Assembly (NCBI RefSeq): GCF_000422245.1
Contig: NZ_ATHI01000026.1
Coordinates: 372,001-436,000 of the forward strand
Direction of reading: 5' to 3'
Source of the DNA: Alkalidesulfovibrio alkalitolerans DSM 16529
GTDB lineage: Bacteria > Desulfobacterota > Desulfovibrionia > Desulfovibrionales > Desulfovibrionaceae
Length of the DNA stretch: 64,000 nt
Shown here piece by piece: positions 17,541-34,865 of the stretch (position 1 is the stretch's first letter; each line of letters opens with the position of its first letter). The position numbers and the translations under genes were made by a program. The notes below the pieces were generated by a model. That model saw only the letters and a program-made list of their open reading frames with translations, was not told where the DNA came from and ran no database searches.

Positions 17541-17610
17541 TATCGCGCAATAGAGCACTAGCAGGCTCTCCAATCACGCACAAGGAAAAGTTATGCATAA
17601 AATCGCGCAT
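17541..17610. promoter_or_regulatory. Candidate upstream activator sites (WATCGCGCAW)
   Basis: TATCGCGCAA (17541-17550) and AATCGCGCAT (17601-17610) are 60 bp apart, centre to centre, and lie 140-210 bp upstream of the sigma-54 promoter, a normal distance for enhancer sites. The same 10-mer occurs twice, inverted, upstream of the second sigma-54 promoter at 31396-31437. Function is inferred from recurrence and position. Confidence 0.4.
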
Positions 17611-17750
17611 GGTAGGGCAATGGAAGGCGCTTGCTCCACGCAATCGACCCTCTTCACATGGCGCCTTGGCCAAGATAGTGATAAAATAAACAAATAAAAA
17701 ACTAGTTTAATCAGCATGTTGTCGTTCAGCTGTCGCTTGCGCGAGCAGTT

Positions 17751-17767
17751 TAGGCACGGCATTTGAT
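17751..17767 (+). promoter_or_regulatory. Sigma-54 (-24/-12) promoter of first CBS/symporter operon
   Basis: TAGGCACGGCATTTGAT fits the consensus YTGGCACGRNNNTTGCW with two mismatches; GG and GA are separated by exactly 10 bp. It lies 123 bp upstream of the CBS gene and between that gene and the divergent sigma-54-activator-like gene. Confidence 0.65.
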
Positions 17768-17780
17768 AAGTTTAGCTCTG

Positions 17781-17794
17781 ATTTGCGCGCAAAT
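17781..17794. promoter_or_regulatory. Perfect palindrome near the expected transcription start
   Basis: ATTTGCGCGCAAAT is a perfect 14-bp palindrome about 13 bp downstream of the -12 element. It could be an operator for an additional repressor or a relative of the WATCGCGCAW sites. No function is established. Confidence 0.35.
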
Positions 17795-17890
17795 GGTTTT
17801 TCAGGTTCGCGCCACGAGGCGCGCCGAGTTCAGAAACATGGATCGTGCACGATCTCGACTCTTACGGAAAGTACCAGAGGAGCGAGAATG

Positions 17891-18445
17891 ATGAATGGAA
17901 CAGTCAAGGATTTCATGGTCCCCATTGGCAAGTTTCCCATGATCTCCGATACGGCGACCTTCGCCGGGGCGGTCATGGCGCTTGATCGCGCCCAGGAGGA
18001 ATATCTCTCGGGAAAAAGAGAGCAGCGCATCCTCCTCGTCCGCGACGAAGACAACAAGATCGTGGGCAAGCTCTCACCCATCGATGTCGTACGCGGCCTG
18101 GAGCCAGACTACGACAAGCTCGTCGATGAGCAGGCCAGCGCTCTGGTCGGCAATTTCGACTACGTCATCCAGACGATGAAGAATCAGGTCACTCTTTGGT
18201 CGAAGCCGCTCGATGACCTGTGCTCGACTGCCAAGGATATGCTTGTGCGGGATTTTGTGAGCAATCCTTCGCAGTCGCAGATCATCGGCGCAGAAGAGTC
18301 CCTCAATGCCGCTTTCCACCGCTTTGTCATGTTCAAGCACGACTCGCTTTTCGTGATGGACGGACAAAAACTTGTCGGGCTCATCCGTTTTTCGGACGTA
18401 TATAAGGAAATCAGCAGGCGAATAAAGGAAGTCTGCCGCCTGTAA
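17891..18445 (+). CDS. Stand-alone CBS-pair protein, module 1
   Basis: A 184-residue cytoplasmic protein made only of two CBS motifs. CBS1 runs from VKDFMVPIGKFPMIS to KIVGKLSPIDVVRGL; CBS2 from LVRDFVSNPSQSQII to QKLVGLIRFSDVYKEI, ending RRIKEVCRL. CBS pairs commonly bind adenine nucleotides or other small ligands and control a partner, often a transporter. The Met at 17891 is chosen by alignment to the paralogue at 31689 (MNERV against MNGTV) and an AGGAG 8 nt upstream. It is the first gene after the sigma-54 promoter and 55 bp before the symporter gene. The paralogue at 31689 is very similar; the one at 21267 is more divergent. A role gating the symporter is inference. Confidence 0.85.
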   Translation: MNGTVKDFMVPIGKFPMISDTATFAGAVMALDRAQEEYLSGKREQRILLVRDEDNKIVGKLSPIDVVRGLEPDYDKLVDEQASALVGNFDYVIQTMKNQVTLWSKPLDDLCSTAKDMLVRDFVSNPSQSQIIGAEESLNAAFHRFVMFKHDSLFVMDGQKLVGLIRFSDVYKEISRRIKEVCRL

Positions 18446-18500
18446 CACAGGCGCTGCAAGCAAACAACTATCCACCAGGTCGACATACGGAGGTCTCACC

Positions 18501-19955
18501 ATGAGTGCTCACGCAGCTCCAGGCAATTCGCCCGATGAACTCGTCGTCCACGAAGAAGAATCCCAGGGACCGGTGCAATCCGGCCGGACGATACTGCTCA
18601 AGGTTCTTTTCGCCTTCGCCGTGGGCATAGGCATTTATCTGCTGCCCACCCCCGAAACCCTTCCTGCGCAGGGCCATAAATTCCTGGCTCTGGTGACTAC
18701 GGTGATCATCCTGTGGGTGTCCGAGGCCATCCCCATCGGCGTGACCGCGCTTTGCGCCGCCGCCGGCCTCATCCTCTTCGGCATCGAGTCGCCAAACAGG
18801 GCGTGGGCACCCTTCGCCAGCCCCGCGGTCATGTTCGTGCTCATGATCATCATGTTCGGCGTGGTGTTGAACGAGGTCGGCTTGGCCAACCGCATCATGT
18901 CGTGGATATTCAAGATAGCCGGAACAGGCGTCAAGCGGCTGAGCTTCGTGCTGGCCGTGGGCTGCACCATGCTGGCCACGATCTTTCACGATGCGACAGT
19001 CACGGTCATCATGATCTTCGCCCTGGTCCCAGTGCTGCGTGCCATGGGGATCACTCCGGGTAAAAGCAACAATCTTTCCAAATTTTTCATCATCCTCATT
19101 CCCCTGGCCGCATCCGCTGGCGGATTCGGCACGCTGCTGGGTGGCGGCAGAAACCCGCTGGCCGTCGAAATCCTCGCCAAGTACACCAACGGCGCGGTCA
19201 ACGTCGGGTTCATGGAATACCTCATCATCCAGTTTCCCCTTTCCATATTCACAGCCCTCGCCACATGGGCGGTAGTGTACATGATCTTCAGGCCCAAGGA
19301 GAAAGAGCTCCCCGCAGCCGTCAGGATCGAGAAGATGCCGCCCATGCGAGGCAAGGAACTCGGCGTGACCATCATCTTCACGCTGACCTTCATCCTCTGG
19401 ACCTTCTCGGATCTCACGGGCTGGCACGTGAGCGTGGTCGCCGCCCTGGCTCTGGCGGGATTCTGCGGTCCAAAGTTCATCTCGTTCAAGACCATCTGCG
19501 ACAAGTTCCCGTGGGAGTCGTGGATCGTTTTCGGCGCCGGCGTCTCCCTTGGCGCGTCGATGCTCAACTCGGGCGCGGGCAAGTATCTGGCGGAAGTCTG
19601 CTTGCCGCTCTTGCAGGGGCAACCTTCATTCCTGGTTTTCTATGGGATGGGCTTCTTCGGGTCGTTCCTTTCTAGCATGATGAGCAACTCGGCGGCCGTG
19701 GCCCTGACGCTGCCCATCACCCTGCCCATGGCCGAGATGCTGAACATGTCGCCTCAGGCCGTGGCGCTGCTCGCACCCATAACCACCTCGTTCATCATGC
19801 TGGTCATCGGCTGTCCGCCGACCATCATCGCCTACAGCACCGGCTATTTCAGCCAAGTGGATTTCATCAAGGTGGCCGTGCCCTGGTGTCTGGTTCTGCT
19901 CGGCGTGGCCGTCGTGGGGGTCATGTTCTACTGGCCGATGATCGGATTCTATTAG
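18501..19955 (+). CDS. DASS/SLC13-like anion symporter, module 1
   Basis: A 484-residue integral membrane protein with about 11-12 helices and an acidic N-terminal tail (DELVVHEEESQGPVQSGR). It has the two-fold repeat of the divalent anion:Na+ symporter/ion-transporter superfamily: TEAIPIG-like VSEAIPIGVTALCA, GGFGTLLGGGRNPLAVEI in the first half; MSNSAAVALTLPITLPMAEM and IGCPPTIIAYSTGYFSQ in the second. At the position of the first SNT sodium motif it reads HDATVTVIM, whereas the second retains SNSA. CGGAGG precedes the ATG by 8 nt. Sulfate or dicarboxylate is the likely substrate class; the sequence cannot decide. Paralogues are at 21897 and 32310. Confidence 0.88.
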   Translation: MSAHAAPGNSPDELVVHEEESQGPVQSGRTILLKVLFAFAVGIGIYLLPTPETLPAQGHKFLALVTTVIILWVSEAIPIGVTALCAAAGLILFGIESPNRAWAPFASPAVMFVLMIIMFGVVLNEVGLANRIMSWIFKIAGTGVKRLSFVLAVGCTMLATIFHDATVTVIMIFALVPVLRAMGITPGKSNNLSKFFIILIPLAASAGGFGTLLGGGRNPLAVEILAKYTNGAVNVGFMEYLIIQFPLSIFTALATWAVVYMIFRPKEKELPAAVRIEKMPPMRGKELGVTIIFTLTFILWTFSDLTGWHVSVVAALALAGFCGPKFISFKTICDKFPWESWIVFGAGVSLGASMLNSGAGKYLAEVCLPLLQGQPSFLVFYGMGFFGSFLSSMMSNSAAVALTLPITLPMAEMLNMSPQAVALLAPITTSFIMLVIGCPPTIIAYSTGYFSQVDFIKVAVPWCLVLLGVAVVGVMFYWPMIGFY

Positions 19956-19969
19956 GCGCATTGCAAACG

Positions 19970-19994
19970 CCAGTCGGCCCAAAAGGCCGACTGG
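19970..19994 (+). other. Intercistronic hairpin, symporter to receiver gene
   Basis: CCAGTCGGCC (19970-19979), a 5-nt loop and GGCCGACTGG (19985-19994) form a perfect 10-bp stem between the symporter stop and the next ribosome site, with no U-run. A different-sequence hairpin occupies the same place in the module at 33811-33837, so structure rather than sequence is kept. Confidence 0.7.
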
Positions 19995-20013
19995 CCCAAG
20001 AGGAGGATGCCAT

Positions 20014-20463
20014 ATGGTTCAGGAAAAGCCGAAACTCTTGCTTGTCGACGACGAGGAGCGGTTTCGCACGACCTTGGGAAAGCGTCTCGTCGAGGGAGGC
20101 TACGAAGTCTTGAGCGTGGGCAGCGGGATGGAAGCGCTCGAAGTTCTGGCTCGGACTCCGGTGGACGTTGTGGTTCTCGACATAAGGATGCCTGGCTTGA
20201 GCGGCATCGAAACCCTGGCCGAGATCCGCGAAAAGCACATCGGGGTCGAAGTCCTGCTCTTGACCGGCCATGCCGACGTGCCCTCCGCCGTGGAGGGAAT
20301 GAGGCTCGGCGCTTTCGACTACCTGATGAAGCCGTATGAGTTTCAGGGGCTGGTCGCGAAAATTCAGGATGCCTACGCGGTCAAGCTTGAGCGTGACGAG
20401 AGGATCCGCAAGGCCGAGGAACGCGCGCAACTCGACAAGCTCGAAAAAAGCATGCGTTTTTAG
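20014..20463 (+). CDS. Receiver-only response regulator, module 1
   Basis: A 149-residue single REC domain without output domain. It has the acidic pair (LLLVDDEERFR), phospho-acceptor Asp in VVVLDIRMPGLSG, Thr in LLLTGHADVPSAVEG, and Lys in FDYLMKPYEFQGL. The C-terminus is a charged helix (ERDERIRKAEERAQLDKLEK, then SMRF). The receiver resembles those of NtrC/DctD-type regulators, but the AAA+ and DNA-binding parts are absent. AGGAGG precedes the ATG. It follows the symporter by 58 bp. It probably works as a phospho-relay intermediate or by protein contact. Paralogues at 33855 and 34416 share the same tail, which may be the partner-binding element. Confidence 0.9.
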   Translation: MVQEKPKLLLVDDEERFRTTLGKRLVEGGYEVLSVGSGMEALEVLARTPVDVVVLDIRMPGLSGIETLAEIREKHIGVEVLLLTGHADVPSAVEGMRLGAFDYLMKPYEFQGLVAKIQDAYAVKLERDERIRKAEERAQLDKLEKSMRF

Positions 20464-20476
20464 GTCTTGCATCCAG

Positions 20477-20512
20477 CCATTTCCCCGTCGCGGCGCTCCG
20501 GCGGGGAAATGG
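20477..20512 (+). other. Hairpin after the first receiver gene
   Basis: CCATTTCCCCG (20477-20487) pairs with CGGGGAAATGG (20502-20512) across a GC-rich loop. There is no U-run. It could end the upstream transcript segment or stabilise its mRNA. Confidence 0.55.
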
Positions 20513-20543
20513 CGAATCCGATTCGGTGGATGGAGAGATGGGA

Positions 20544-20777
20544 ATGAAGGACGAAGCTTTTAGCAAGGAAATGCGGACGGGAACGGAAAAGGCTGCCCCT
20601 GAGCCCGGCGCCGCGTCCGAGTTTGTCCCGTTCAAGGCGCTTCATCACCTGCCTCGCGGCAAAAACGCCTGGAACCCCGCCATCCTGAAGAAGTGGTGGT
20701 TCTGGCCTGCGAGCGTGCTGGGTCTCATCCTTCTGAACGTGCTGTGCACGCTCGTGAGAACGCTTCTGGGCGAATGA
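20544..20777 (+). CDS. Small single-span membrane protein
   Basis: A 77-residue protein with a charged N-terminal half (MKDEAFSKEMRTGTEKAAPE) and one C-terminal membrane helix (WWFWPASVLGLILLNVLCTL, about 52-71), ending VRTLLGE. GGAG lies 8 nt before the ATG at 20544; two in-frame ATGs just upstream have worse spacing. It sits between two receiver genes in the same operon, and no counterpart is seen in the module at 31.7 kb. No family is recognised. An inner-membrane accessory or scaffold for the symporter or kinases is possible but is inference. Confidence 0.65.
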   Translation: MKDEAFSKEMRTGTEKAAPEPGAASEFVPFKALHHLPRGKNAWNPAILKKWWFWPASVLGLILLNVLCTLVRTLLGE

Positions 20778-20804
20778 CCCGGAGGAACCCAAGGAGAGCT
20801 TGCC

Positions 20805-21218
20805 ATGATGCCCGTTGCTTCCGGCCAAAACGCAGTGGTTCCCAGAATACTTCTGGTGGACGACGAAGAACGCTTCCTTCGCACCCTGGGCAAGCGCATG
20901 CTGGAACGCAATCAGAACGTCGTCACTGCGAGCAGCGGTCTGGAAGCTCTACGCATCGTTTCGGAGCAACCCATTGATGTGGTCGTTCTGGATGTGAAGA
21001 TGCCGGGTTTGGACGGCCTGGAAACCCTGACGGAGCTCAAGAAACGTCATCCAGAAACGGTGGTGATCCTGCTTACCGGGCATGCCTCGATCGAGATGGC
21101 CACCGAGGGGGTGCGCATGGGAGCGTTCGAGTATCTGATGAAACCCTGCGATGTGGACACCCTCATTGACCACATCGGAAGAGCATATGCCCAGAAGCTG
21201 GAGCGCAGGCGCGCCTGA
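20805..21218 (+). CDS. Receiver-only response regulator
   Basis: A 137-residue lone REC domain: ILLVDDEERFLRTLGKRM, phospho-acceptor in VVVLDVKMPGLDGLE, VILLTGHASIEMATEGV, and FEYLMKPCDVDTLIDHIG. It has no output domain. The C-terminal tail (YAQKLERRRA) is shorter than in the other island receivers, and MKPC replaces MKPY, grouping it with the receiver at 27420 rather than with the symporter-linked ones. AAGGAG precedes the ATG pair. It lies 27 bp after the small membrane protein gene and 48 bp before the second CBS gene. The likely donors are the two CACHE kinases downstream. Confidence 0.88.
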   Translation: MMPVASGQNAVVPRILLVDDEERFLRTLGKRMLERNQNVVTASSGLEALRIVSEQPIDVVVLDVKMPGLDGLETLTELKKRHPETVVILLTGHASIEMATEGVRMGAFEYLMKPCDVDTLIDHIGRAYAQKLERRRA

Positions 21219-21266
21219 TCACCGGGGCATTGGCGGCAATCAAGCCGGAAGACGTGGAGGAAGAAC

Positions 21267-21827
21267 ATGGAATCGATGACTGTCGAAAAACTGATGATAC
21301 CTGCCGAGCGATTCCCGAGGATATCCGAGGAGGAGACGTTCGGAACGGTGGTGAGGACGCTCAACCAATGCCACGAGGATTACAAATCGGGAAAAAGCGA
21401 ACAGTGCATCCTGCTGGTTCACGACGAGAGGGGTCGCGTCGTGGGGAAAATATCCCCCATGGACGTTTTGCGTGGGCTCGAACCCCAGTACTCGAAGATG
21501 GGCGAGGCCGTGGGCGCCCATACCCTTGGCGCCTCGTACGATCACATGATGCGCTCGCTCTTCGATCAAGCGACCCTGTGGACAAGGCCTCTCAAGGAAC
21601 TTTGCTCCAAGGCGCGCGACGTGAAGATCAAGGATTTCATCCGCCGTCCCACCGCCGCGCAGACGGTGGACATCACGGACAGCCTCGACCAGGCGGTGCA
21701 CCGTTTCGTCATGGGCCGCCACGATTCGCTGTTTGTCACCGACGGCGCGCAGCTTCGCGGGATGCTGTTGTTTTCCGACCTGTACGCGCACATGTCCAGA
21801 ATCATGAACGAGACCTGCAACCTCTAA
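21267..21827 (+). CDS. Stand-alone CBS-pair protein, module 2 (divergent copy)
   Basis: A 186-residue CBS-pair protein: VEKLMIPAERFPRIS to RVVGKISPMDVLRGLEP, then VKIKDFIRRPTAAQTV to QLRGMLLFSDLYAHM. It is clearly homologous to the module 1 and 3 proteins but much more divergent, with a different C-terminus (SRIMNETCNL). GGAGG precedes the ATG by 8 nt. It is followed by symporter 2 after a 69-bp gap. Divergence from the other two suggests a different ligand setting or an older duplication. Confidence 0.85.
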   Translation: MESMTVEKLMIPAERFPRISEEETFGTVVRTLNQCHEDYKSGKSEQCILLVHDERGRVVGKISPMDVLRGLEPQYSKMGEAVGAHTLGASYDHMMRSLFDQATLWTRPLKELCSKARDVKIKDFIRRPTAAQTVDITDSLDQAVHRFVMGRHDSLFVTDGAQLRGMLLFSDLYAHMSRIMNETCNL

Positions 21828-21896
21828 CACGACGGGATGGTTTCCCGCACAGCGGGAAAGGAGAAAGCGCAAACGTAATGAGAAGGGGTGTTCGAA

Positions 21897-23360
21897 ATGA
21901 CCGCTGAAGCCAAGAAAGCAGATTATAGAGATCGGCCTGAAGACGAACTCCTCGTGGAGGAGCATCCTTCCGGCCCCGAACAATCAGGCCGCAGCATAAT
22001 AATAAAAGTGCTGCTGGCCATTGCAGTGGGACTAGGCGTCTACGCCTTGCCTACACCGGATAATTTGTCTCCCGAGGGGCACAGATTCCTCGCGTTGCTT
22101 CTGTCCATCGTTATCCTGTGGGTTACGGAAGCCATACCGATCGGCGTCTCAGCGCTGGTCGCGGCGGCCGGATTGATCCTCTTCGGCATTCAAAGTCCTG
22201 GTGCGGCCTGGGCTCCCTTCGCCAGCCCGGCGGTCATGTTCGTGCTCATGATCGTCATGTTCGGCGTCGTGCTCAACGAAGTGGGCCTGGCAAACAGGAT
22301 CATGTATTACGTGTTCAAGATGGCGGGCACAGGAGTCAAGAAGCTCAGCTTCGTGTTGGCTGTTGGCTGTACGATGATGGCCACCGTTTTCCATGATGCA
22401 ACTGTCACGGTCATCATGATTTTCGCCTTGGTCCCGGTTTTTGTGTCCATGGGGATAACGCCCCTCAAAAGCAACAATCTTTCGAAGTTTTTTATAATTC
22501 TCATTCCCTTGGCATCATCGGCCGGCGGTTTCGGAACGCTGCTAGGCGGCGGGCGAAATCCCCTGGCTGTCGAAATATTGCAGTCGTTCACCAATGGCAA
22601 GGTCACGGTCGGCTTCATGGAGTACATCGTGATCCAGTTTCCTCTGGCCTTTCTGACCGCGGTGGCCACCTGGGGCGTACTCTGGCTGATCTTCAGGCCC
22701 AAGGAAAAGGAACTGCCCGCCGAGGTCATGATGGATAAGATGCCTCCCATGCGCGGCAAGGAACTTGGCGTGACGATCATTTTCACCCTCACGTTCATCA
22801 TGTGGACCCTTTCCGATCTCACCGGCTGGCATGTGAGCGTCGTGGCCGCCTTGGCGCTGGCCGGTTTCTGCGGCCCAAAGTTCATTTCCTTCAAGACGAT
22901 CTGCGACAAATTCCCTTGGGAATCCTGGATCGTCTTCGGCGCAGGCGTGTCAATGGGCGCGGCGATGTTGAGCTCCGGAGCCGGCCAGTACCTCGCCGAA
23001 GTCTGCCTGCCGCTTCTCGATGGGCAGCCCTCCTTCGTCGTCTTCTATGGCTTCGGCTTCTTCGGATCGTTCCTGTCGAGCCTCATGAGCAACTCGGCGG
23101 CGGTGGCCCTCACCCTGCCCATCACGTTGCCCATGGCCGAAATGATGAACATGTCGCCCCAGGCGGTGGCGCTGCTCTCACCGATCACGACCTCCTTCAT
23201 CATGCTGGTCATCGGCTGCCCGCCGACGATCATCGCCTACAGCACGGGCTACTTCAGCCAGATAGAATTCGTGAAGGTGGCCGTTCCCTGGTGTCTTACG
23301 TTGCTGCTCGTCTCCACCGTGGGAGTTCTCCTGTATTGGCCCATGATCGGATTCTATTGA
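21897..23360 (+). CDS. DASS/SLC13-like anion symporter, module 2
   Basis: A 487-residue paralogue of the symporter at 18501, colinear over the whole length: VTEAIPIGVSALVAAAG, FHDATVTVIMIFALVPVF, GGFGTLLGGGRNPLAVEI, MSNSAAVALTLPITLPMAEM, IGCPPTIIAYSTGYFSQIEF. The N-terminal tail differs (ADYRDRPEDELLVEEHPSGP) but keeps the acidic block before QSGRS. The HDATVT sequence again stands where an SNT motif is expected. The ATG at 21897 has AAGGGG 8 nt upstream; a GTG three codons earlier is an alternative start. No hairpin follows it and no receiver gene is attached, unlike the other two symporters. Substrate unknown; sulfate or dicarboxylate class is likely. Confidence 0.87.
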   Translation: MTAEAKKADYRDRPEDELLVEEHPSGPEQSGRSIIIKVLLAIAVGLGVYALPTPDNLSPEGHRFLALLLSIVILWVTEAIPIGVSALVAAAGLILFGIQSPGAAWAPFASPAVMFVLMIVMFGVVLNEVGLANRIMYYVFKMAGTGVKKLSFVLAVGCTMMATVFHDATVTVIMIFALVPVFVSMGITPLKSNNLSKFFIILIPLASSAGGFGTLLGGGRNPLAVEILQSFTNGKVTVGFMEYIVIQFPLAFLTAVATWGVLWLIFRPKEKELPAEVMMDKMPPMRGKELGVTIIFTLTFIMWTLSDLTGWHVSVVAALALAGFCGPKFISFKTICDKFPWESWIVFGAGVSMGAAMLSSGAGQYLAEVCLPLLDGQPSFVVFYGFGFFGSFLSSLMSNSAAVALTLPITLPMAEMMNMSPQAVALLSPITTSFIMLVIGCPPTIIAYSTGYFSQIEFVKVAVPWCLTLLLVSTVGVLLYWPMIGFY

Positions 23361-23860: not shown

Positions 23861-25549
23861 ATGCTGAATGCACTGTCGGACAACAAGAAGCGGCGCATAG
23901 TATTCACTGTTTTAGTATACATATTCATGCCTGCAATTTTTGTCGCCGCAGGCGCGTTCATTTATTCGATCAACGAAATTGACGGGGACACGCGCTCGCG
24001 ATTCAAAGAAAACATGGAGATCATGGCAAGAAAATACAAAAAGAATACAGACGTCAACATCAAGGATCTTTTGAGCATTGTGCAGTTCACATCCGACCTG
24101 CACTCGCTCGGTGAACTGAGGTCGCCGGAGAATCTTGCTTCCGTGTTCAGCAAGATGGATCGAGATTTTGACCATGTATTCGAGGATATCGGCATCCTCG
24201 GCGAAGATGGAAAGCACTTGGCCTATGTCGGCCCTCATGATCTCCTTGAAATGGATTACAGCAAGGAGGAGTGGTTCCTCGACGTAATGGAGAATGGCGT
24301 CACCGTCAGCGACGTTTTCCTCGGGTATCGCCGTTCTCCACATTTCATCATCGCCATAAAGAAAGAGAACGGCAAGCAGACTTGGGTCATGCGCGTCACG
24401 GTCAATGTCTTCTTGTTCAGTTCACTATTGGACAACATCCGCCTGGGGCGTACTGGCGAAGTGTTCATCGTTAACTCGGAGGGGGTGCTACAGACCAGAT
24501 CCCTCACTCACGGAGCGATTCTCCAGAAGGTTGACGATGCCCTTTTGCGTTCCATCTCGACTGGCGCCGACGGGTCCTTCAAGCGAGAGCTCCAGGGAGT
24601 TGTCTTTGACTACACGATCGCCAGGCTGACCTCCAAGTCAGACTGGTGGCTTGTGGTGCAACGAGAAGAACGTGAACTGAACCAAGCACTTCGGACGCGA
24701 ACCGCCAACTACGCCTTGCTTTTCGGCGTGTGCGTCCTTCTTCTGGCGGGAGCGGCGGTTCTGGGCCTTCGCCTCCTGCTCGCCCAGGTCGAGAAGATCG
24801 ACATGGAAAAGACGCTGCTGAACGATCAGGTCATCCAGTCGCAAAAACTCGCCGCCATCGGCCAGCTCTCGGCGGGCATCGCTCACGAGATCAACAACCC
24901 CCTGGCGATCATCGGCGAAGAGGCCGGATGGCTCCAGGATCTGCTCAAGCGCGAGACGATGGCCAGATTCGCGGAGATAGACGAATTTCATGACTCCCTG
25001 CGGGAGATAGTGACCCAGGCGGGGCGGTGCAGGGAAATCACGCACAAGCTCCTCAGCTTCGCACGCAAGATGGACTCCACGATTCGGGATGTGGATATGC
25101 ACACTCTCGTGTCCGAAGTCGTGGGCATGCGCGAGCGGGAAGCGACCCTGAACAACATCAGCATAGTCAAGGAGTTCGCCTCCGATCTCCCGATCATCCA
25201 CAGCGAGCCCTCGCTGTTACGCCAAGTCCTTCTCAATCTCCTGAACAACGCCATCGACGCCATTCACGGAGGCGGCCGAATCACGATCTCCGTCAGCAAG
25301 CTGTCGGAGGGCGGCATCACCGTGAGCATCAGCGATACGGGCATCGGGATCCCCAAGGAGAATCTGGACAAGATATTCGACCCCTTCTTCACCACCAAGG
25401 AGCCCGGACGAGGAACGGGTCTGGGATTGTCCATCTGCCATGGAATAATCCAGAAGCTGGGCGGTGAAATTTCTGTCCACAGCCAGCCGGGAGAAGGGAC
25501 CACATTCATCATCAACCTTCCGCAGGAAGCTCCAGCCGACATTCGCTAG
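23861..25549 (+). CDS. Sensor histidine kinase with periplasmic CACHE domain (kinase 1)
   Basis: A 562-residue NtrB/DctB-type kinase. Membrane helix IVFTVLVYIFMPAIFVAAGA (about 13-32), periplasmic double-CACHE-like sensor (about 40-285; VFLGYRRSPHFIIAIKK is the typical small-ligand strand region), second helix LLFGVCVLLLAGAAVLGLRL (about 290-310), HisKA with the phospho-acceptor in AGIAHEINNPLAII (about 340), then HATPase with LLNLLNNAIDAIHGG, DTGIGIPKENL and GTGLGLSI. It ends 67 bp before kinase 2, with the same architecture. Codon use is more AT-rich than in the flanking chromosome. DctB-like kinases sense transported anions in the periplasm, which fits a role beside symporters, but the ligand is unknown. 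No full-length DNA-binding partner is encoded nearby, only lone receivers. Confidence 0.92.
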   Translation: MLNALSDNKKRRIVFTVLVYIFMPAIFVAAGAFIYSINEIDGDTRSRFKENMEIMARKYKKNTDVNIKDLLSIVQFTSDLHSLGELRSPENLASVFSKMDRDFDHVFEDIGILGEDGKHLAYVGPHDLLEMDYSKEEWFLDVMENGVTVSDVFLGYRRSPHFIIAIKKENGKQTWVMRVTVNVFLFSSLLDNIRLGRTGEVFIVNSEGVLQTRSLTHGAILQKVDDALLRSISTGADGSFKRELQGVVFDYTIARLTSKSDWWLVVQREERELNQALRTRTANYALLFGVCVLLLAGAAVLGLRLLLAQVEKIDMEKTLLNDQVIQSQKLAAIGQLSAGIAHEINNPLAIIGEEAGWLQDLLKRETMARFAEIDEFHDSLREIVTQAGRCREITHKLLSFARKMDSTIRDVDMHTLVSEVVGMREREATLNNISIVKEFASDLPIIHSEPSLLRQVLLNLLNNAIDAIHGGGRITISVSKLSEGGITVSISDTGIGIPKENLDKIFDPFFTTKEPGRGTGLGLSICHGIIQKLGGEISVHSQPGEGTTFIINLPQEAPADIR

Positions 25550-25616: not shown

Positions 25617-27332
25617 ATGGCATACCATCCTTACTACAGTCCCTTTCGACGCAGGATGATACTGCTGATCATACTTGCCTCGCTGCTCCCCATAATGTTT
25701 CTTGCTTTTGCCTGGAGCAGCCACTTCCAATCCTCCTATTCAGAAAAGACGATCGCCCATGCCGAATCGTTGGTCGAACAGCACCGACAAAACGTGGACA
25801 TCTTCTTGCGACAGTGTCTGTCGGAACTGCAAATCATCGCAGACCTGGCAGGACAGGAAATGCTGCGTGACGGCGAGGTGCTCGAAGATCTGCTGACTAT
25901 CTTGCAAACTCGAAGCCAAGACGTTTTCGTGGATATAGGCGTGGTCTCGAGCGACGGAAGGCAGGTCGCCTATGCCGGTCCATTGCAGCTCGACGGCGCG
26001 GACTACTCCGAGGCCGAGTGGTTCAGGCAGGCCATGAACCGCCAGTCCTACATCTCCGATGTGTTCAGCGGACTGCGCGGGTCTCCGCATTTCATCGTCG
26101 CCGACCACAGAGTCTGGGGAGGACGTGAATTCGTCGTCCGGGCGACCATCGACTTTGCAACATTCAACGATCTCATCGATGACATCAGCCTTGGACATAC
26201 GGGATTGGCATATATTGTGGACCGAGCGGGCACGCTGCAGGTTCATGCTCGGCGCATGGAATTCACGCCAGATCCCCGCGAACTTCTGGAAATCATAAGC
26301 GAAAACGTCGGAAGCGCTGCAGGAATCGAACGGACCGCCGGGGTCGTTTCAACGATTCGAAAGAGCCCGGGAACCGGCAAGGATGTTCTGTTCGTCGTCG
26401 CCCCCCTCAAGGACGGCGACTGGCTCCTAGTTTTCCAGCAAGAGGCGGATGATGCCTTCGCCGCCTTGAAGACAGCCCGAATACTGGCACTTTCAGGCAT
26501 CCTGCTCACCGCTTTCGCCGTCGGAGCCATGGCCTTTGTGCTTTCCGGCCGCATGGTGCGCATGCTGCAGAAGATCGACAAGGAAAAGGAGACCATGAAC
26601 GAGCAAGTCATCAAGGCAGGCAAGCTGGCCTCCCTTGGCGAGCTCGCGGCGGGAATCGGTCATGAGATCAACAATCCGGTGGCGATCATGATGGAAGAAG
26701 CCGGCTGGGTGGAAGACATCCTGGCCGATGGAATCCAGACCGAGCAAGACAAGGCCGAGATCAAGCGCGCTTTGGCCCAGATACGTACCCAGGGTCGGCG
26801 CTGCCGCGAGATTACCCACAAATTGCTCACCTTCGCGCGCAAGCGGGAACCGTCGCATTCCGATGTGGATTTGAGCGCCCTCGTGCGCGAGATGGTCGAA
26901 CTCTCCCTGCAGCGGGCCCGCTTCGCCAATGTCGAAATCGTGCAGGATCTGGCCGAGAATCTGCCCCCCTTGTACGTTTCCTATTCCGAACTGCAGCAGG
27001 TGGCTTTGAACCTCATCAACAACGCCCTGGATGCGATGGAAGAGAAGGGCGGAGTTCTTACGCTTTCCACGATCCGACAGGGCGACAACCTGGTCCTCTC
27101 CGTCGAAGACACGGGACACGGGATTCCGAAGACCAATCTGAACAGGATATTCGATCCGTTCTTCACCACGAAGCCGGTCGGCAAGGGAACCGGGCTCGGG
27201 CTCTCCATCTGTTACGGAATAATTCAGAAGATGGGTGGGAAGCTCGAAGTCGCAAGTCGCGTCGGGCACGGCAGCAAATTTACGGTCAGTCTCCCGATAA
27301 GGGCAAAACGCCCGGAGGAAGATGAAGGATAG
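25617..27332 (+). CDS. Sensor histidine kinase with periplasmic CACHE domain (kinase 2)
   Basis: A 571-residue paralogue of kinase 1 with the same layout. First helix IILASLLPIMFLAFAW, periplasmic CACHE-like domain (VFSGLRGSPHFIVADH), second helix ILALSGILLTAFAVGAMAFV, HisKA phospho-acceptor in AAGIGHEINNPVAIM (about 350), and HATPase with ALNLINNALDAMEEKGG, DTGHGIPKTNL and GTGLGLSICYG. The ATG at 25617 has AAGGAA 7 nt upstream. It is followed by a receiver-only gene 87 bp downstream. The sensor halves of the two kinases differ far more than the catalytic halves, suggesting related but distinct ligands read by a shared set of receivers. Confidence 0.92.
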   Translation: MAYHPYYSPFRRRMILLIILASLLPIMFLAFAWSSHFQSSYSEKTIAHAESLVEQHRQNVDIFLRQCLSELQIIADLAGQEMLRDGEVLEDLLTILQTRSQDVFVDIGVVSSDGRQVAYAGPLQLDGADYSEAEWFRQAMNRQSYISDVFSGLRGSPHFIVADHRVWGGREFVVRATIDFATFNDLIDDISLGHTGLAYIVDRAGTLQVHARRMEFTPDPRELLEIISENVGSAAGIERTAGVVSTIRKSPGTGKDVLFVVAPLKDGDWLLVFQQEADDAFAALKTARILALSGILLTAFAVGAMAFVLSGRMVRMLQKIDKEKETMNEQVIKAGKLASLGELAAGIGHEINNPVAIMMEEAGWVEDILADGIQTEQDKAEIKRALAQIRTQGRRCREITHKLLTFARKREPSHSDVDLSALVREMVELSLQRARFANVEIVQDLAENLPPLYVSYSELQQVALNLINNALDAMEEKGGVLTLSTIRQGDNLVLSVEDTGHGIPKTNLNRIFDPFFTTKPVGKGTGLGLSICYGIIQKMGGKLEVASRVGHGSKFTVSLPIRAKRPEEDEG

Positions 27333-27419
27333 AGGGCGAACCTCTAGCAAAACAGGGATCAACGGCAAGCGAGGGCTCTATCGTGGACACTCCTGCCGAA
27401 AACAATGGAGGATTCAATC

Positions 27420-27848
27420 ATGAGCGTCAAAATTTTACTGGTTGATGATGAGCAGGGATTCGTCGAGACCATGGAGAAGCGCCTCACCAAGCGCGGAATC
27501 GAGGTCAAGACCGCCCTCTCCGGACAGGCGGCTCTGGAGGCATTGGCGGAGGGGGGCGTGGAGGTCGTGGTGCTGGATGTGAAGATGCCCGTCATGGACG
27601 GCATCGAAACATTGCGGCGCATCAAGGCCGAGTACCCGCTGACCGAGGTGATCATGCTGACCGGTCACGGGACAGTGGAAACCGCCATCGAGGGCATGAA
27701 GCTCGGGGCATACGACTACATGCTCAAGCCGTGCGAACTCGAAGAACTGATGGACAAGGCCAAGCTCGCGGCGGGCAGACGCCGTGAACACGAGCAGCGT
27801 ATTGTCGAGGCGCGGGCGCAGAGCATCGCCCTGAGACGCGGAGACTAG
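27420..27848 (+). CDS. Receiver-only response regulator after kinase pair
   Basis: A 142-residue REC domain: ILLVDDEQGFVETMEKRL, VVVLDVKMPVMDGIETL with the phospho-acceptor, VIMLTGHGTVETAIEGM and YDYMLKPCELEELMDKA. It has no output domain; the tail is REHEQRIVEARAQSIALRRG. The start at 27420 follows GGAGG by 8 nt; an ATG five codons upstream overlaps that site. With MLKPC and TGHGTVETA it is closest to the receiver at 20805. Position suggests it is the direct phosphate acceptor of kinase 2. A GC hairpin closes the gene, after which the IS remnant begins. Confidence 0.9.
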   Translation: MSVKILLVDDEQGFVETMEKRLTKRGIEVKTALSGQAALEALAEGGVEVVVLDVKMPVMDGIETLRRIKAEYPLTEVIMLTGHGTVETAIEGMKLGAYDYMLKPCELEELMDKAKLAAGRRREHEQRIVEARAQSIALRRGD

Positions 27849-27856
27849 CAACGAAC

Positions 27857-27897
27857 AGGGCTGGCCCGGCATCGACTCCCGTGGCTGGGCCAGCCCT
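27857..27897 (+). terminator. Hairpin at end of kinase/receiver operon
   Basis: AGGGCTGGCCC (27857-27867) pairs perfectly with GGGCCAGCCCT (27887-27897) across a 19-nt loop, 9 bp after the receiver stop. There is no U-run, so termination is likely but not certain. Confidence 0.5.
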
Positions 27898-27950
27898 TCC
27901 GGCATCCCTCCGCACCAAACCCAAAACCTCAAACAGAGTCGTGGGTCGCC

Positions 27951-28352
27951 ATGAATCATTCTGATTATGAACGGATATGGCAGATTGTCGGGCCGCTCCT
28001 GCCCAAGCCGCCGCCGCGTCCTCGCGGAGGGCGCCGCCGCCTGAGCAATAAATCCGTCTTGCGAGGCATACTGTTCGTTTTGGAGACGGGCACTCCTTGG
28101 GAGCATCTGCCGACGGAGATGGGATGCGGATCGGGAATGACGTGCCTGCGACGCCTTCGGGAATGGCAAAACACCGGAGTCTGGGATCTCATCAGAGCGG
28201 TGCTTCTTGCGGTGATGAAAGAGGCGCACCGGCTTGACTGGAATCGATTTGCGGCATGCCCCAACCCGAAGCCGGTTCCTCGAAGAAGCAAGAAACGGTT
28301 TGCAGGTCGAGTTGGGGAAAGCGGAGAAAAACGCAAAGAGATTTCAGCATAG
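27951..28352 (+). pseudogene. IS5-type (IS427-like) transposase N-terminal fragment
   Basis: The frame starts like the helix-turn-helix part of IS5-family transposases: YERIWQIVGPLLPKPPPRPR, GGRRRLSNKSVLRGILFVLE, TGTPWEHLPTEMGCGSGMTC, then LREWQNTGVWDLIRAVLLAV. It keeps this similarity to about residue 97 (RLDWNRF) and then runs into unrelated sequence. The DDE catalytic half (second frame in IS427 elements) is absent, so this is a dead remnant. It separates the kinase/receiver block from the PEP-synthase-like gene and shows past insertion activity on the island. Confidence 0.85.
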
Positions 28353-28369
28353 CCCTGTCAGTGACAGGG
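28353..28369. promoter_or_regulatory. Palindrome upstream of PEP-synthase-like gene
   Basis: CCCTGTCA, one central G, TGACAGGG form a perfect palindrome 55 bp before the next gene's start. It could be a repressor operator or a small hairpin. The TGACA half-sites are typical of dimeric regulators, but no family is assigned. Confidence 0.35.
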
Positions 28370-28424
28370 GCGAAATCGAAACGGAACCGTTGCGACCAAA
28401 GTTCTCACGTAATGCGAGAGGTTG

Positions 28425-30992: not shown

Positions 30993-31554
30993 TGACGCGG
31001 GCCGGAAACCGACATTTCCGCAAGAATCGAAACCACCGCAGCGCATCTTGCCGGAAGCACAGAGTCTTTGCCTTTGCATTCCTGCGGTCTCGTCGCTCAG
31101 GTTCGCCCTCAGCCCCTTAAATTATAACCTGGGCACGAAAACCCAGCATGTTTTTTTCTCTCCTGGGTGATACGAGGTTTGCCGCTCACGGCCACCGTGC
31201 TCACACTCCCCGCTATCTTCTGTCGTCTCTGCCAGTGACGTCTGATCACAGCCCCCGCATGCTTCGTCCAAACATGATGTAACAGTTGGCGGGATTTTGA
31301 AAAGCCTGCCTGACTGCGACCTACAGGCTCCAGTTCACCTCAGTCGGTACTCACGCGCCTCGGCCTTGCCGTGTTGAGGACGCAGGCAACCTGCCAATCG
31401 CGCAAACTCGCCAATCTGCGGCCATGATTGCGCGATTAAATGCGCAGAGACTGCTCCGGTAAACTGCAATATGCATTTTTCCTGAATCAAAGTTAAGATT
31501 TTTTACTTTTTAAAAACAAATAGTTAAAACTGCGCAAGCTCTCAAAATCTACCC
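30993..31554. other. Long regulatory gap with inverted WATCGCGCAW sites
   Basis: There is no credible gene in this stretch of about 560 bp. It contains a weak terminator at its start. An inverted pair, AATCGCGCAA (31396-31405) and TTGCGCGATT (31428-31437), has centres 32 bp apart, about three helical turns, so both would face the same side. The pair lies roughly 120-160 bp upstream of a sigma-54 promoter, the usual place for activator binding. The last 60 bp are strongly AT-rich, which suits IHF-like bending. Confidence 0.5.
31128..31157 (+). terminator. Weak intrinsic terminator candidate
   Basis: CCTGGG (31129-31134), an AT-containing loop and CCCAG are followed by CATG and TTTTTTT. The stem is only 5-6 bp, but the U-run is good. 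It would end the PEP-synthase-like transcript 135 bp after its stop. Confidence 0.4.
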
Positions 31555-31571
31555 ATGGCACGCCAAGTGCT
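31555..31571 (+). promoter_or_regulatory. Sigma-54 (-24/-12) promoter of module 3 operon
   Basis: ATGGCACGCCAAGTGCT keeps TGGCACG at -24 and GC at -12 with the required 10 bp between GG (31557-31558) and GC (31569-31570). It lies 118 bp upstream of the CBS gene and resembles the promoter at 17751 in placement. Confidence 0.75.
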
Positions 31572-31688
31572 TAAGAAACCCCAGGTGCGCGACAACTCCG
31601 CACTCTGGATTGGGTGGGTTGAGTGCAGGAAAAGGCTTACGGATGACCAGACGACTCTACGAACCATGACAGGCAAACGAGGTGACCA

Positions 31689-32243
31689 ATGAACGAACGT
31701 GTCAGGGATTTCATGGTCCCAATCAGCAAGTTCCCCATGATCTCCGAGGCGGCGACATTCGCAGGGGCGGTCATGGCGCTTGAGCGGGCGCAGGAGGAAT
31801 ACCTCTCCGGCAAAAAGGAGCAACGCATTCTTTTGATTCAGGACGACGAGGGGCGAATCGTCGGCAAGCTGTCGCCGATCGATGTCGTGCGAGGGCTTGA
31901 GCCCGACTACGACAAGCTCGTGGATGAGCAGGCGAGTTCCCGTGTCGTCAACTTCGACTACGTAATCCAATCCTCCAAGGAGCGGGCGTTGCTGTGGGCA
32001 AAGCCGCTCGACGATCTGTGCTCCCTGGCCAAGGATGTCCTGGTCAAGGATTTCATCCGTCATCCGACAAAGTCCCAGACCATCGAGAGCGACGAAATGC
32101 TCAACATCGCATTCCATCGCTTCGTCATGTTCAGGCACGACTCCTTGTTCGTTATGGAAGACGGCAAACTCGTCGGCTTGCTGCGGTTTTCCGACGTTTA
32201 TCGGGAGATCGTGCGGCGGATCAAGGAAGTCTGCCGTCTGTAG
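31689..32243 (+). CDS. Stand-alone CBS-pair protein, module 3
   Basis: A 184-residue near-duplicate of the module 1 CBS protein: VRDFMVPISKFPMISEAATF, RIVGKLSPIDVVRGLEPDYD, VKDFIRHPTKSQTI, GLLRFSDVYREIVRRIKEVC. Only a minority of positions differ. GAGG is 6 nt before the ATG. It is the first gene after the second sigma-54 promoter, again directly before a symporter. Keeping the same pair (CBS then symporter) behind separate sigma-54 promoters argues that the pair is one functional unit. Confidence 0.87.
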   Translation: MNERVRDFMVPISKFPMISEAATFAGAVMALERAQEEYLSGKKEQRILLIQDDEGRIVGKLSPIDVVRGLEPDYDKLVDEQASSRVVNFDYVIQSSKERALLWAKPLDDLCSLAKDVLVKDFIRHPTKSQTIESDEMLNIAFHRFVMFRHDSLFVMEDGKLVGLLRFSDVYREIVRRIKEVCRL

Positions 32244-32309
32244 CCTTTGAAGGAATGAGTGTCTTCTTTGGCGGTTTACACATCATCAAAGCAAAAACGG
32301 AGGGCTCAC

Positions 32310-33764
32310 ATGAGTGCTCACAATGTCAATACCGATTCTCCTGACGAGATCATCCTCCAGGAAGAAGAACCGCAAGGTCCCGTGCAGTCCGGTCGATCAA
32401 TCATCATAAAGGTCTTGATTTCATTGGGCCTTGGATTGCTCGTCTATCTGATTCCCATGCCGGAATCACTCCCCCCGGCCGGGCACAAGTTCCTTGGATT
32501 GGTCGTCGCAGTCATCGCTCTCTGGGTGACCGAGGCCATTCCCATCGGCATCACCGCACTGTGCGCGGCGTCCGGCCTGATACTCTTCGGTATTCAGTCG
32601 GCAAACAAGGCATGGTCGCCATTCTCAAGTCCGGCGGTCATGTTCGTGCTCATGATCATCATGTTCGGCGTGGTGTTGAACGAAGTGGGCCTCGCAAACC
32701 GAATCATGTCTTGGGTTTTCAAGCTGGCGGGACGCGGGGTCATGCGCCTGAGCTTTGTCATGGCCTTCAGTTGCACCATGCTGGCCACGTTCCTGCATGA
32801 CGCGACCGTCACGGTCATCATGCTCTTCGCCCTCGTTCCAGTGCTTCGCGCCATGGGCATCACGCCGGCCAAGAGCAACAACCTTTCCAAGTTCTTCATC
32901 ATCCTCATTCCGCTTGCAGCTTCCGCGGGCGGCTTCGGAACGCTGCTCGGCGGCGGCAGAAACCCGCTGGCCGTCGAAATCCTCACCAAGTACACCAACG
33001 GCGCGATCAAGGTCGGTTTTCTCGAGTACATGATCATCCAATTCCCGCTGGCCATCTTCACCGCCGTCGCGACGTGGCTGGTCGTGTACATGATCTTCCG
33101 GCCCAAGGAAAAGGAACTCCCGGCCGCAGTCGCCGTCGAGCAAATGCCGCCCATGCGCGGCAAGGAACTCGCCGTGTGCGTCATTTTCGGTCTCGCCTTC
33201 CTCCTTTGGGGATTCTCGGATCTCACAGGCTGGCACGTGAGCGTGGTCGCGGCCTTGGCCCTGGCCGGCTTCTGCGGACCCAAGTTCGTTTCCTTCAAGA
33301 CCATCTGCGACAAGTTCCCCTGGGAGTCGTGGATCGTGTTCGGCGCGGGCGTGTCCATGGGCCAGGCCATGCTGGATTCGGGCGCGGGCAAGTTCCTCGC
33401 CGAGCAGTTCCTGCCCCTTCTGCAGGGCCAGCATCCCTTCTTCGTGTACTACGGCATGGGCTTCTTCGGCTCGTTCCTTTCGAGCATGATGAGTAACTCC
33501 GCAGCCGTGGCCCTCACCCTTCCGGTGACCCTGCCCATGGCCGAAATGCTCAACATGTCGCCGCAGGCCGTGGCGCTGCTCGCCCCGATCACCACCTCGT
33601 TCATCATGCTGGTCATCGGCTGCCCGCCGACCATCATCGCCTACAGCACCGGCTATTTCAGTCAGACGGAATTCATCAAGGTGGCGGTGCCCTGGTGCCT
33701 GGTTCTGCTCCTTCTGTCGGTCATCAGCGTGCTCGTGTACTGGCCGATGATCGGATTCTACTAA
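32310..33764 (+). CDS. DASS/SLC13-like anion symporter, module 3
   Basis: A 484-residue paralogue, closest to symporter 1: acidic tail DEIILQEEEPQGPVQSGRSI, VTEAIPIGITALCAASG, LHDATVTVIMLFALVPVLRA, GGFGTLLGGGRNPLAVEILT, MSNSAAVALTLPVTLPMAEM, IGCPPTIIAYSTGYFSQTEF, and the shared end YWPMIGFY. The ATG at 32310 has CGGAGG 6 nt before it; a frame 17 codons longer has no ribosome site. Differences from symporter 1 cluster in the helices around VMRLSFVMAFSC and in the cytoplasmic loop with AAVAVEQMPPMRGKELAVC, so transport properties may differ. A hairpin and a receiver gene follow, as in module 1. Confidence 0.88.
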   Translation: MSAHNVNTDSPDEIILQEEEPQGPVQSGRSIIIKVLISLGLGLLVYLIPMPESLPPAGHKFLGLVVAVIALWVTEAIPIGITALCAASGLILFGIQSANKAWSPFSSPAVMFVLMIIMFGVVLNEVGLANRIMSWVFKLAGRGVMRLSFVMAFSCTMLATFLHDATVTVIMLFALVPVLRAMGITPAKSNNLSKFFIILIPLAASAGGFGTLLGGGRNPLAVEILTKYTNGAIKVGFLEYMIIQFPLAIFTAVATWLVVYMIFRPKEKELPAAVAVEQMPPMRGKELAVCVIFGLAFLLWGFSDLTGWHVSVVAALALAGFCGPKFVSFKTICDKFPWESWIVFGAGVSMGQAMLDSGAGKFLAEQFLPLLQGQHPFFVYYGMGFFGSFLSSMMSNSAAVALTLPVTLPMAEMLNMSPQAVALLAPITTSFIMLVIGCPPTIIAYSTGYFSQTEFIKVAVPWCLVLLLLSVISVLVYWPMIGFY

Positions 33765-33810
33765 CCGCCGAGGACACGACCGCCGATCACGCACCGCACA
33801 GACAACAAAC

Positions 33811-33837
33811 GCCCGCCGGCCAACAAGGCCGGCGGGC
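33811..33837 (+). other. Intercistronic hairpin, symporter 3 to receiver
   Basis: GCCCGCCGGCC (33811-33821), loop AACAA and GGCCGGCGGGC (33827-33837): a perfect 11-bp stem in the same place as the hairpin at 19970, with no U-run. Confidence 0.7.
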
Positions 33838-33854
33838 CTCACCCGGAGGAAACC

Positions 33855-34316
33855 ATGAGTGAGAATATGCCGATAGTATTGCTTGTCGATGACGAGGAAC
33901 GCTTTCGCACGACTCTTGGCAAGCGGCTGACCGAGGCGGGGATACCTGTCGAGACGGCGGGAAGCGGCATGGATGCCTTGCAAATTCTCGCCGAAAAGCC
34001 CGTTGACGTGGTCATATTGGACATCAAGATGCCCGGCCTAAGCGGCATCGAGACGCTGACCGAGATACGGAACAAGCACATCGGGGTCGAGGTGCTCCTC
34101 CTGACAGGCCATGCCGACGTGCCGTCGGCGGTGGAGGGAATGCGGCTCGGGGCCTTCGACTATCTGATGAAGCCGTATGAGTTCCAGGGGCTGCAGGCCA
34201 AGATACAGGAGGCGTTCAAGGTCAAGGTGGACCGGGACGAGCGCATCCGCAAGGCCCGGGAGCGTGCCGTCCTCGACAAGATCGCCTCGCCAAGAGCTTG
34301 GACGCGAGGGGATTGA
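33855..34316 (+). CDS. Receiver-only response regulator, module 3 (first)
   Basis: A 153-residue REC domain nearly identical in its core to the module 1 receiver: VLLVDDEERFRTTLGKRL, VVILDIKMPGLSGIETL, LLLTGHADVPSAVEGMRLGA, FDYLMKPYEFQGLQAKIQEA. The tail begins alike (DRDERIRKARERAVLDKI) but ends differently (SPRAWTRGD), as if the last codons were replaced. CGGAGG precedes the ATG. It follows the symporter directly, then another receiver gene follows 99 bp downstream. Confidence 0.9.
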   Translation: MSENMPIVLLVDDEERFRTTLGKRLTEAGIPVETAGSGMDALQILAEKPVDVVILDIKMPGLSGIETLTEIRNKHIGVEVLLLTGHADVPSAVEGMRLGAFDYLMKPYEFQGLQAKIQEAFKVKVDRDERIRKARERAVLDKIASPRAWTRGD

Positions 34317-34371
34317 TCGCTAATCGGGTCCGCATGGACCTAAACTTGAAAATTGTGTAGTCTACCCGCAT

Positions 34372-34396
34372 CCCCCGATCCAATCCGGATCGGGGG
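34372..34396 (+). other. Hairpin between the two module 3 receivers
   Basis: CCCCCGATCC (34372-34381), loop AATCC, GGATCGGGGG (34387-34396): a perfect 10-bp stem directly before the ribosome site of the next gene. No U-run. Confidence 0.6.
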
Positions 34397-34415
34397 AAAG
34401 CGCGGGAGAAAGGCC

Positions 34416-34865
34416 ATGAACCAGACCATGCCGAATATTCTCATCGTTGACGACGAGGAACGTTTCCGCATTACGCTGGGCAAGCGCCTGAAGGAAGCAG
34501 GCTTTCCGGTCGAAACAGTGGGTGGGGGACAAGAAGCGCTTGATCATCTCACGCAGCACGCGGTGGACGTCGTCATCCTGGACATAAAAATGCCCGGCCT
34601 GAACGGCATCGAAGTCCTGGCGGAAATCCGGCGCAGACATATCGGGGCCGAAGTGCTCCTGCTGACCGGCCATGCAGAGGTGGCTTCGGCTGTCGATGGA
34701 ATGCGGCTCGGCGCGCATGACTACTTGATGAAGCCGTACGAATTCCAAGGGCTGCAGGCCAAAATCCACGACGCCTACAAGGTCAAGCTGAATCGCGAGG
34801 AACGCCTGAGAAAAGCCGAAGCCCGGGCCCAACTCGACAAATTGGAAAAGAGCATCCGGTTTTAG
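34416..34865 (+). CDS. Receiver-only response regulator, module 3 (second)
   Basis: A 149-residue REC domain: ILIVDDEERFRITLGKRLKE, VVILDIKMPGLNGIEVL, LLLTGHAEVASAVDGMRLGA, HDYLMKPYEFQGLQAKIHDA, tail REERLRKAEARAQLDKLEKS and IRF. The tail matches the module 1 receiver at 20014 (KLEKSMRF), so these two keep the full-length form while the gene between them does not. GGGAG lies upstream of the ATG at 34416; the frame extends 21 codons further through the hairpin, which is not credible as coding. It is the last gene of the module. Confidence 0.9.
   Translation: MNQTMPNILIVDDEERFRITLGKRLKEAGFPVETVGGGQEALDHLTQHAVDVVILDIKMPGLNGIEVLAEIRRRHIGAEVLLLTGHAEVASAVDGMRLGAHDYLMKPYEFQGLQAKIHDAYKVKLNREERLRKAEARAQLDKLEKSIRF

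Follow-up and report, generated by a model that had tools for sequence, protein, structure and literature searches.

We analysed a stretch of 64,000 nucleotides (the window) from Alkalidesulfovibrio alkalitolerans DSM 16529, which is part of contig NZ_ATHI01000026.1 (positions 372,001 to 436,000 of the forward strand). Between 17.9 and 34.9 kb of the window, gene calls and Pfam place a candidate anion-uptake cluster. It comprises three units in which the gene for a CBS-pair protein is followed by the gene for a DASS-type symporter, as well as five lone receivers and two Cache-type histidine kinases (Table 1). On the plus strand, the order is CBS-A, DASS-A, receiver 1, a small membrane protein, receiver 2, CBS-B, DASS-B, kinases 1 and 2, receiver 3, the remnant of an insertion sequence, a dikinase-like protein that we call PPSL, CBS-C, DASS-C, and receivers 4 and 5. 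The Pfam matches at these places are to CBS, Na_sulph_symp/CitMHS, Response_reg, and dCache_1+HisKA+HATPase. An annotation made from the letters alone (the sequence-only reading) had proposed three CBS/symporter pairs, two of them with receivers attached and the third just downstream of two receivers, and had put the kinases and one receiver between units. Gene calls and Pfam confirm this layout: receivers follow units A and C, unit B lies just after receiver 2, and the kinases and receiver 3 lie between units B and C.

Table 1. Features of the cluster, of the surrounding island and of homologous clusters (window coordinates unless a locus is named)
Feature	Position	Strand	Basis
tRNA-Pro (GGG), whose 3' half serves as the island's left attachment site	14133..14209	+	
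Left copy of 136-nt direct repeat (tRNA 3' end and beyond)	14176..14311	.	
Integrase-like remnant, C-terminal fragment, 103 aa	14274..14585	-	by eye; no Pfam match
S54, transmembrane sigma-54 activator	14892..17414	-	Pfam and sequence features
Predicted -24/-12 (sigma-54) site AGGCACGGCATTTGAT before unit A	17752..17767	+	matrix scan, score 10.2
CBS-pair protein, unit A	17888..18445	+	Pfam
DASS-type symporter, unit A (HP1 motif HDAT, HP2 motif SNS)	18501..19955	+	Pfam
Lone receiver 1	20014..20463	+	Pfam, residue check
Small single-transmembrane protein, motif LHHLPRGKNAWNP...WWFWPAS	20538..20777	+	homologue alignment
Lone receiver 2	20805..21218	+	Pfam, residue check
CBS-pair protein, unit B (45% identity to unit A CBS)	21267..21827	+	Pfam
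DASS-type symporter, unit B	21888..23360	+	Pfam
Cache-type histidine kinase 1	23861..25549	+	Pfam; Cache match under cut-off (39.2 vs 45 bits)
Cache-type histidine kinase 2	25617..27332	+	Pfam; dCache_1 above cut-off (79.1 bits)
Lone receiver 3	27405..27848	+	Pfam, residue check
IS4/5-family transposase remnant (DUF4096)	27951..28352	+	Pfam
PPSL: PPDK_N, phosphohistidine swivel and C-terminal domain of ~285 aa	28422..30992	+	Pfam
Predicted -24/-12 (sigma-54) site TGGCACGCCAAGTGCT before unit C	31556..31571	+	matrix scan
CBS-pair protein, unit C (76% identity to unit A CBS)	31689..32243	+	Pfam
DASS-type symporter, unit C (82% identity to unit A DASS)	32310..33764	+	Pfam
Lone receiver 4	33855..34316	+	Pfam, residue check
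Lone receiver 5	34407..34865	+	Pfam, residue check
Right copy of 136-nt repeat with tRNA-Pro 3' half	36700..36835	.	
Receiver-CBS-CBS fusions in homologous clusters	L032:5711-6640, L042:3640-4548, L025:1197-2096, L117:17485-18384		

Conservation of the CBS-DASS unit

We surveyed 297 genomes of the class, 20 of which carry this DASS subfamily. A CBS gene lies 28-169 bp upstream of the DASS gene in all 31 subfamily genes that do not run off a contig. In the homologous loci that we fetched, there is a lone receiver within about 1.5 kb of 49 of the 58 DASS genes. Typically, the order in Desulfovibrionales is a divergent activator and then CBS-DASS-receiver(-receiver)-kinase-PPSL; the order CBS-receiver-DASS(-DASS)-receiver-kinase is frequent in Desulfobacterales. 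The neighborhood is conserved in relatives across the class and is not random, which bears out the earlier proposal of a conserved, modular and self-contained cluster for transport and signaling. Having three units is not a property of the system, as that reading had implied; it is the copy number of this island, and relatives carry one or two.

The three symporters are 75-82% identical to each other. In trees, units A and C are closely related and unit B groups with a Desulfomicrobium-like unit from another genome (G208), so the island was not made by three simple duplications. Full congruence of the CBS and symporter trees did not hold: the agreement is partial (mirror-tree r of 0.50).

How signals may reach the symporters

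All five receivers retain the acidic pair, the phosphorylatable aspartate, and the conserved threonine and lysine, and by these residues they are competent for phosphorylation. Since the genome encodes just 27 receiver proteins of 200 amino acids or less, about 0.1 would be expected in 15 kb, and the five found are far above chance. According to Pfam, all five are receiver-only and the island encodes no DNA-binding response regulator, as the sequence-only reading had noted. The two kinases that it reported are also present.

The homologous clusters suggest where the phosphoryl signal goes. Besides an example in locus L047, they contain 13 open reading frames that fuse a receiver to CBS domains, three of which are cut by the ends of the loci. 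In L032 and L042, the fusion lies 25 and 39 bp before the DASS gene and takes the place of the CBS gene. In the CBS-receiver-DASS unit of L047, the CBS protein has a receiver-like N-terminus. Gene fusion is standard evidence that two proteins are in contact. Contact between receiver and CBS protein is thus supported by natural fusions, and the lone receivers probably exert their output through protein contact. From the invariant pairing of the genes, we infer that the CBS protein in turn acts on the symporter.

In its predicted structure, the CBS protein is a Bateman pair (the mean pLDDT, a measure of model confidence, is 82.8), with a helical insert that is poorly predicted. The model is closest to stand-alone pairs that bind adenosine monophosphate (AMP) and cyclic di-AMP. 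We also observed that two cysteines (C111 and C182 in alignment numbering) are kept in 90% or more of the CBS family and might serve to sense redox state, metals or sulfide.

The sequence-only reading had offered a second outlet for phosphoryl signals, the sigma-54-type regulator that is encoded divergently from unit A. This protein (S54) has transmembrane segments at residues 29-47 and 373-391, with an extracytoplasmic region of about 325 residues between them. These are followed by an AAA+ sigma-54 interaction domain, with the Walker A motif GETGTGK and a GAFTGA-like loop (GAFTDG), and by a winged-helix-like C-terminus. (A longer frame extends to 17573, but that start is less likely.) Pfam found no receiver domain in it. 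Given the two hydrophobic segments, the AAA+ domain and the lack of a receiver, we read S54 as a one-component membrane activator. Natural variants of GAFTGA are listed among the one-component activators of D. vulgaris (PMC4641369). As S54 has no receiver domain, we reject it as an obvious outlet of the phosphoryl signals; with an extracytoplasmic domain of its own, it would instead be a parallel input. Of the two proposed outlets, protein contact is the likely one, and the receiver-CBS fusions favor it.

We scanned for -24/-12 promoters with a rough matrix whose weights follow the published consensus. There are predicted sites before units A and C. In relatives with a divergent activator, predicted sites lie at a similar distance before the CBS genes. 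Most of the sites, in the island and in relatives taken together, exceed a score of 11.5, which only 1.6% of 433 control upstreams reach. The score of the unit A site (10.2) is at a level reached by between 2.3% (for 10.5) and 5.8% (for 9) of the controls. Boxes of the TCGCGCA type lie before unit A (17543, 17603 and 17738) and before unit C (31398 and 31429). In an unbiased count of words upstream of the promoters, ATCGNGCA and TCGYGCAA were the commonest; TCGYGCAA occurred 12 times, as compared to 0.3 times in shuffled sequences, and was absent from 3 of the 10 upstreams. The conserved linkage and the shared boxes suggest that S54 acts at these promoters, and the enrichment of TCGYGCAA makes it a putative binding box.

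Two further conserved parts had been missed by the sequence-only reading. The first is the small protein (about 79 amino acids), which ends in one hydrophobic helix and carries the family motif LPRGKNxWNP..WWFWP. Sixteen homologues share H-x-LPxGK...W-x-P...WFWP, and the protein has no match in Pfam or NCBIfam. It is found in 13 of the 297 genomes, once in each, and in 12 of these no more than 5 kb separates it from a subfamily DASS gene. The thirteenth genome (G173) has a close relative of the CBS protein and no DASS match. (The copies from Desulfobacterales come from the fetched loci.) In a phylum-wide sample of 395 genomes, we found the small protein only in A. alkalitolerans itself, and this even sample perhaps held few relatives. 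Judging from its distribution, the small protein is a good marker of the cluster. We tentatively suggest that it probably anchors a complex at the membrane.

The second is PPSL. It shares its PPDK_N and phosphohistidine swivel domains with dikinases such as phosphoenolpyruvate (PEP) synthase and rifampin phosphotransferase; the ATP-binding domain is intact and the swivel histidine is conserved. Pfam lists only PPDK_N and PEP-utilizers, with no PEP/pyruvate-binding domain, and the C-terminal domain matches nothing known. As no match to the PEP-binding domain is seen in this third domain, PPSL is not a PEP synthase. PPSL stands in most of the Desulfovibrionales clusters. It is also found in 233 of the 297 genomes, in several copies, which rules it out as a part that is specific to the cluster; it is only recurrently linked. 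Of 20 PPSL genes that we sampled outside the clusters, around half adjoin lone receivers, kinases or S54 genes, and one is beside another CBS-DASS pair. A paralogue is encoded elsewhere in this genome (G000:C26:257196-259571), and PPSL-like proteins are multicopy in Desulfovibrionales. An AlphaFold model of PPSL was discarded (pLDDT of 40, from three alignment rows).

The receivers may have PPSL as an additional target or partner. Alternatively, the receivers might act mainly on PPSL, which would convert ATP to AMP and a phosphorylated acceptor; the CBS protein would read this product, or the AMP, and set the symporter. The company that PPSL keeps inside and outside the clusters fits this idea, as do its conserved histidine and ATP-binding domain, and CBS pairs of the predicted fold do bind AMP. 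But because PPSL is so common, finding it near the cluster says less, and its C-terminal domain is without a match. We consider this alternative quite improbable.

The island and its surroundings

The cluster lies in an island of about 22.5 kb (14176-36835), which is flanked on both sides by a 136-nt direct repeat of the 3' end of tRNA-Pro. The two copies of the repeat are 96% identical. The sequence-only reading had mentioned neither these tRNA-Pro borders nor the insertion-sequence remnant. The G+C content is 0.55-0.61 inside this stretch and 0.60-0.69 in the surroundings. The duplication of a tRNA 3' end at both borders and the shifted base composition are what define a tRNA-integrated genomic island. 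We did not find an intact integrase in the island; the only integrase-like piece is a remnant of 103 amino acids that has no match in Pfam. A gene for an AAA_14/DUF4143 ATPase (35138-36304, minus strand) lies near the right border.

In a sister genome that lacks the cluster (G061), the tRNA-Pro locus is also present and is followed downstream by two more 49-bp copies of the tRNA 3' end, which is the pattern expected of an integration hotspot. (The copies are at C15:14022-14142, 26436-26484 and 71503-71551, which suggests tandem elements.) We did not find a clean empty site in this species: the left flank is present and is followed by the other tRNA-Pro 3' copies, and the gene of the right flank has no clear orthologue.

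The remnants of an integrase and a transposase raise the possibility of a decaying mobile island without a function. However, all genes of the system are open, their catalytic and contact residues are conserved, and the three units have been maintained at the symporter identities given above. Loss of function seems very improbable.

Outside the island, the window contains large transporter-like genes at 39862-41691 (minus strand) and 60787-63126 (plus strand), which by eye are of the SLC13 or ion-transporter type, the second with apparent TrkA-C-type repeats. On the plus strand, there are also a set of iron-sulfur proteins that by eye are heterodisulfide-reductase-like (43685-49049) and a very long hybrid sensor protein (55626-60377), with by-eye matches to a CheB/CheR-like start and to PAS, kinase and receiver parts.

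A proposed mechanism and its relation to known systems

Sulfate reduction begins with an energetically costly step, the uptake of sulfate; to our knowledge, the way in which this step is throttled has not been worked out in detail. The explanation of the locus that we favor, with confidence that is about evenly balanced, is that it is a mobile copy of the DASS/CBS anion-uptake cluster of sulfate reducers, most likely for sulfate, carried as a tRNA-borne island, in which a sigma-54 activator sets transcription and a chain of contacts from kinase to receiver to CBS protein to symporter sets activity. S54 would turn on units A and C from their -24/-12 promoters. In a second, faster layer, the Cache kinases would sense the anion outside and phosphorylate the lone receivers, which would dock on the CBS-pair protein. 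The CBS protein would also read an adenosine nucleotide, and it would open or close the symporter that is translated beside it. The small protein might anchor the complex at the membrane, and the receivers might also target PPSL or partner with it.

A more far-reaching interpretation is that a two-component system gates a secondary anion symporter by contact, via a phosphorylated receiver, a nucleotide-reading CBS adaptor and a small single-transmembrane protein; that the anion outside and the energy charge inside would be joined at the transporter; and that the whole spreads as a tRNA-borne island with its own activator. We offer this interpretation tentatively, as it is somewhat more likely to be wrong than right.

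Another explanation is that the kinases and receivers never touch the transporter. The receivers would serve regulators whose genes lie elsewhere, either as shuttles in a phosphorelay or as phosphate sinks, control would be entirely transcriptional, and the CBS protein would sense the energy state alone. The published model for such clusters is of this kind, at least as set out in its main passages: it proposes that a kinase acts on a DNA-binding regulator, with CBS as a separate layer (PMC11887813). Also, the genome of A. alkalitolerans has CBS-DASS pairs without receivers. On the other hand, the island lacks a DNA-binding response regulator, the local sigma-54 activator lacks a receiver domain, relatives have receiver-CBS fusions, and the receivers track the CBS-DASS unit gene by gene. 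We consider this explanation unlikely and continue to prefer gating by contact.

Several observations do weigh against gating by contact and its links to S54 and sulfate. The L047 fusion has a receiver-like part that appears degenerate, and our structure models are of single chains, not complexes. The -12 element before unit A is imperfect (GA for GC), and the scan found no sigma-54 site upstream of unit B, of either kinase, of PPSL or of the downstream receivers. The receiver-free pairs are two more distant paralogues, on contigs C32 and C5; because no receiver adjoins them, we view the CBS-DASS pair as the core and the receivers as an added layer. Finally, the substrate and the coupling ion are not certain, because the symporters score just below the cut-off of the NCBIfam DASS model (TIGR00785; 183.9 and 192.6 vs 198.6 bits) and their first hairpin carries HDAT instead of SNT.

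Sulfate is the most likely substrate judging from the homologous clusters of Desulfobacteraceae, which encode abundant, constitutive proteins that are assigned to sulfate uptake; as the source describes it, that assignment is based on homology to TCDB entries and on protein abundance (PMC11887813). The Pfam model Na_sulph_symp matches the symporters well above its cut-off (122-140 bits vs 27). The cluster could import another anion (a dicarboxylate, thiosulfate or another oxyanion) under the same regulation. This would suit the two hairpin motifs, both of which are unlike those of VcINDY, and Pfam's citrate-transporter model fits the symporters as well as the sulfate model does. Against it stand those abundant and constitutive DASS proteins, annotated by homology as sulfate importers. 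We think that a different anion is somewhat unlikely.

By sequence, the symporters belong to the same family as VcINDY (SLC13/DASS), with E = 8e-25 over 440 residues. They differ from it in having HDAT instead of SNT at HP1 and SNS instead of SNT at HP2, which are invariant in every subfamily member listed, and they also differ from VcINDY and SLC13 in the acidic N-terminal tail of many members and in the invariant CBS partner gene. Similarly, the CBS protein has the same predicted fold as the stand-alone regulators DarB/CbpB and CBSX, but it has a helical insert between the two CBS motifs, a conserved C-terminal cysteine and a symporter gene as its partner. A precedent for the proposed chain is EpsW-EpsZ of Myxococcus xanthus, in which a lone receiver contacts a membrane enzyme and directly activates it (PMC12802240). 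The homology between the two systems is limited to the receiver: EpsW-EpsZ works without a CBS adaptor, and its target is a phosphoglycosyl transferase (PMC12802240).

The sequence-only reading did not recognize the island as a named system. In fact, clusters of this kind were published in 2025, with a model of their regulation, as sulfate-uptake clusters from Desulfosarcina variabilis 3be13 and other sulfate reducers (26 species; PMC11887813). As in the island, these combine DASS symporters, CBS-domain proteins, Cache histidine kinases and response regulators, and homologous units are present in the Desulfobacterales loci that we fetched. The locus does differ from the clusters as portrayed in the main-text passages of PMC11887813. 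The response regulators there are called WalR type (DNA-binding), while those of the island are all receiver-only; transcriptional control is proposed there, while the island has a transmembrane sigma-54 activator and predicted sigma-54 sites; and those passages make no mention of the small membrane protein, PPSL or the fusions. The location on a tRNA-borne island is a further difference. What is new here (the divergent activator with its promoters and boxes, the small-protein family, PPSL without a PEP-binding domain, and the receiver-CBS fusions) suggests how signals might reach the transporter. With the fusions and the conserved promoter sites, what was a general model of how uptake is regulated now specifies contacts that can be tested, from receiver to CBS protein to symporter. 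Two further conserved parts are also named, the small membrane protein and PPSL, the dikinase-like protein. If this is correct, a two-component system would here control a secondary transporter through contact, which is unusual, and the whole moves as an island.

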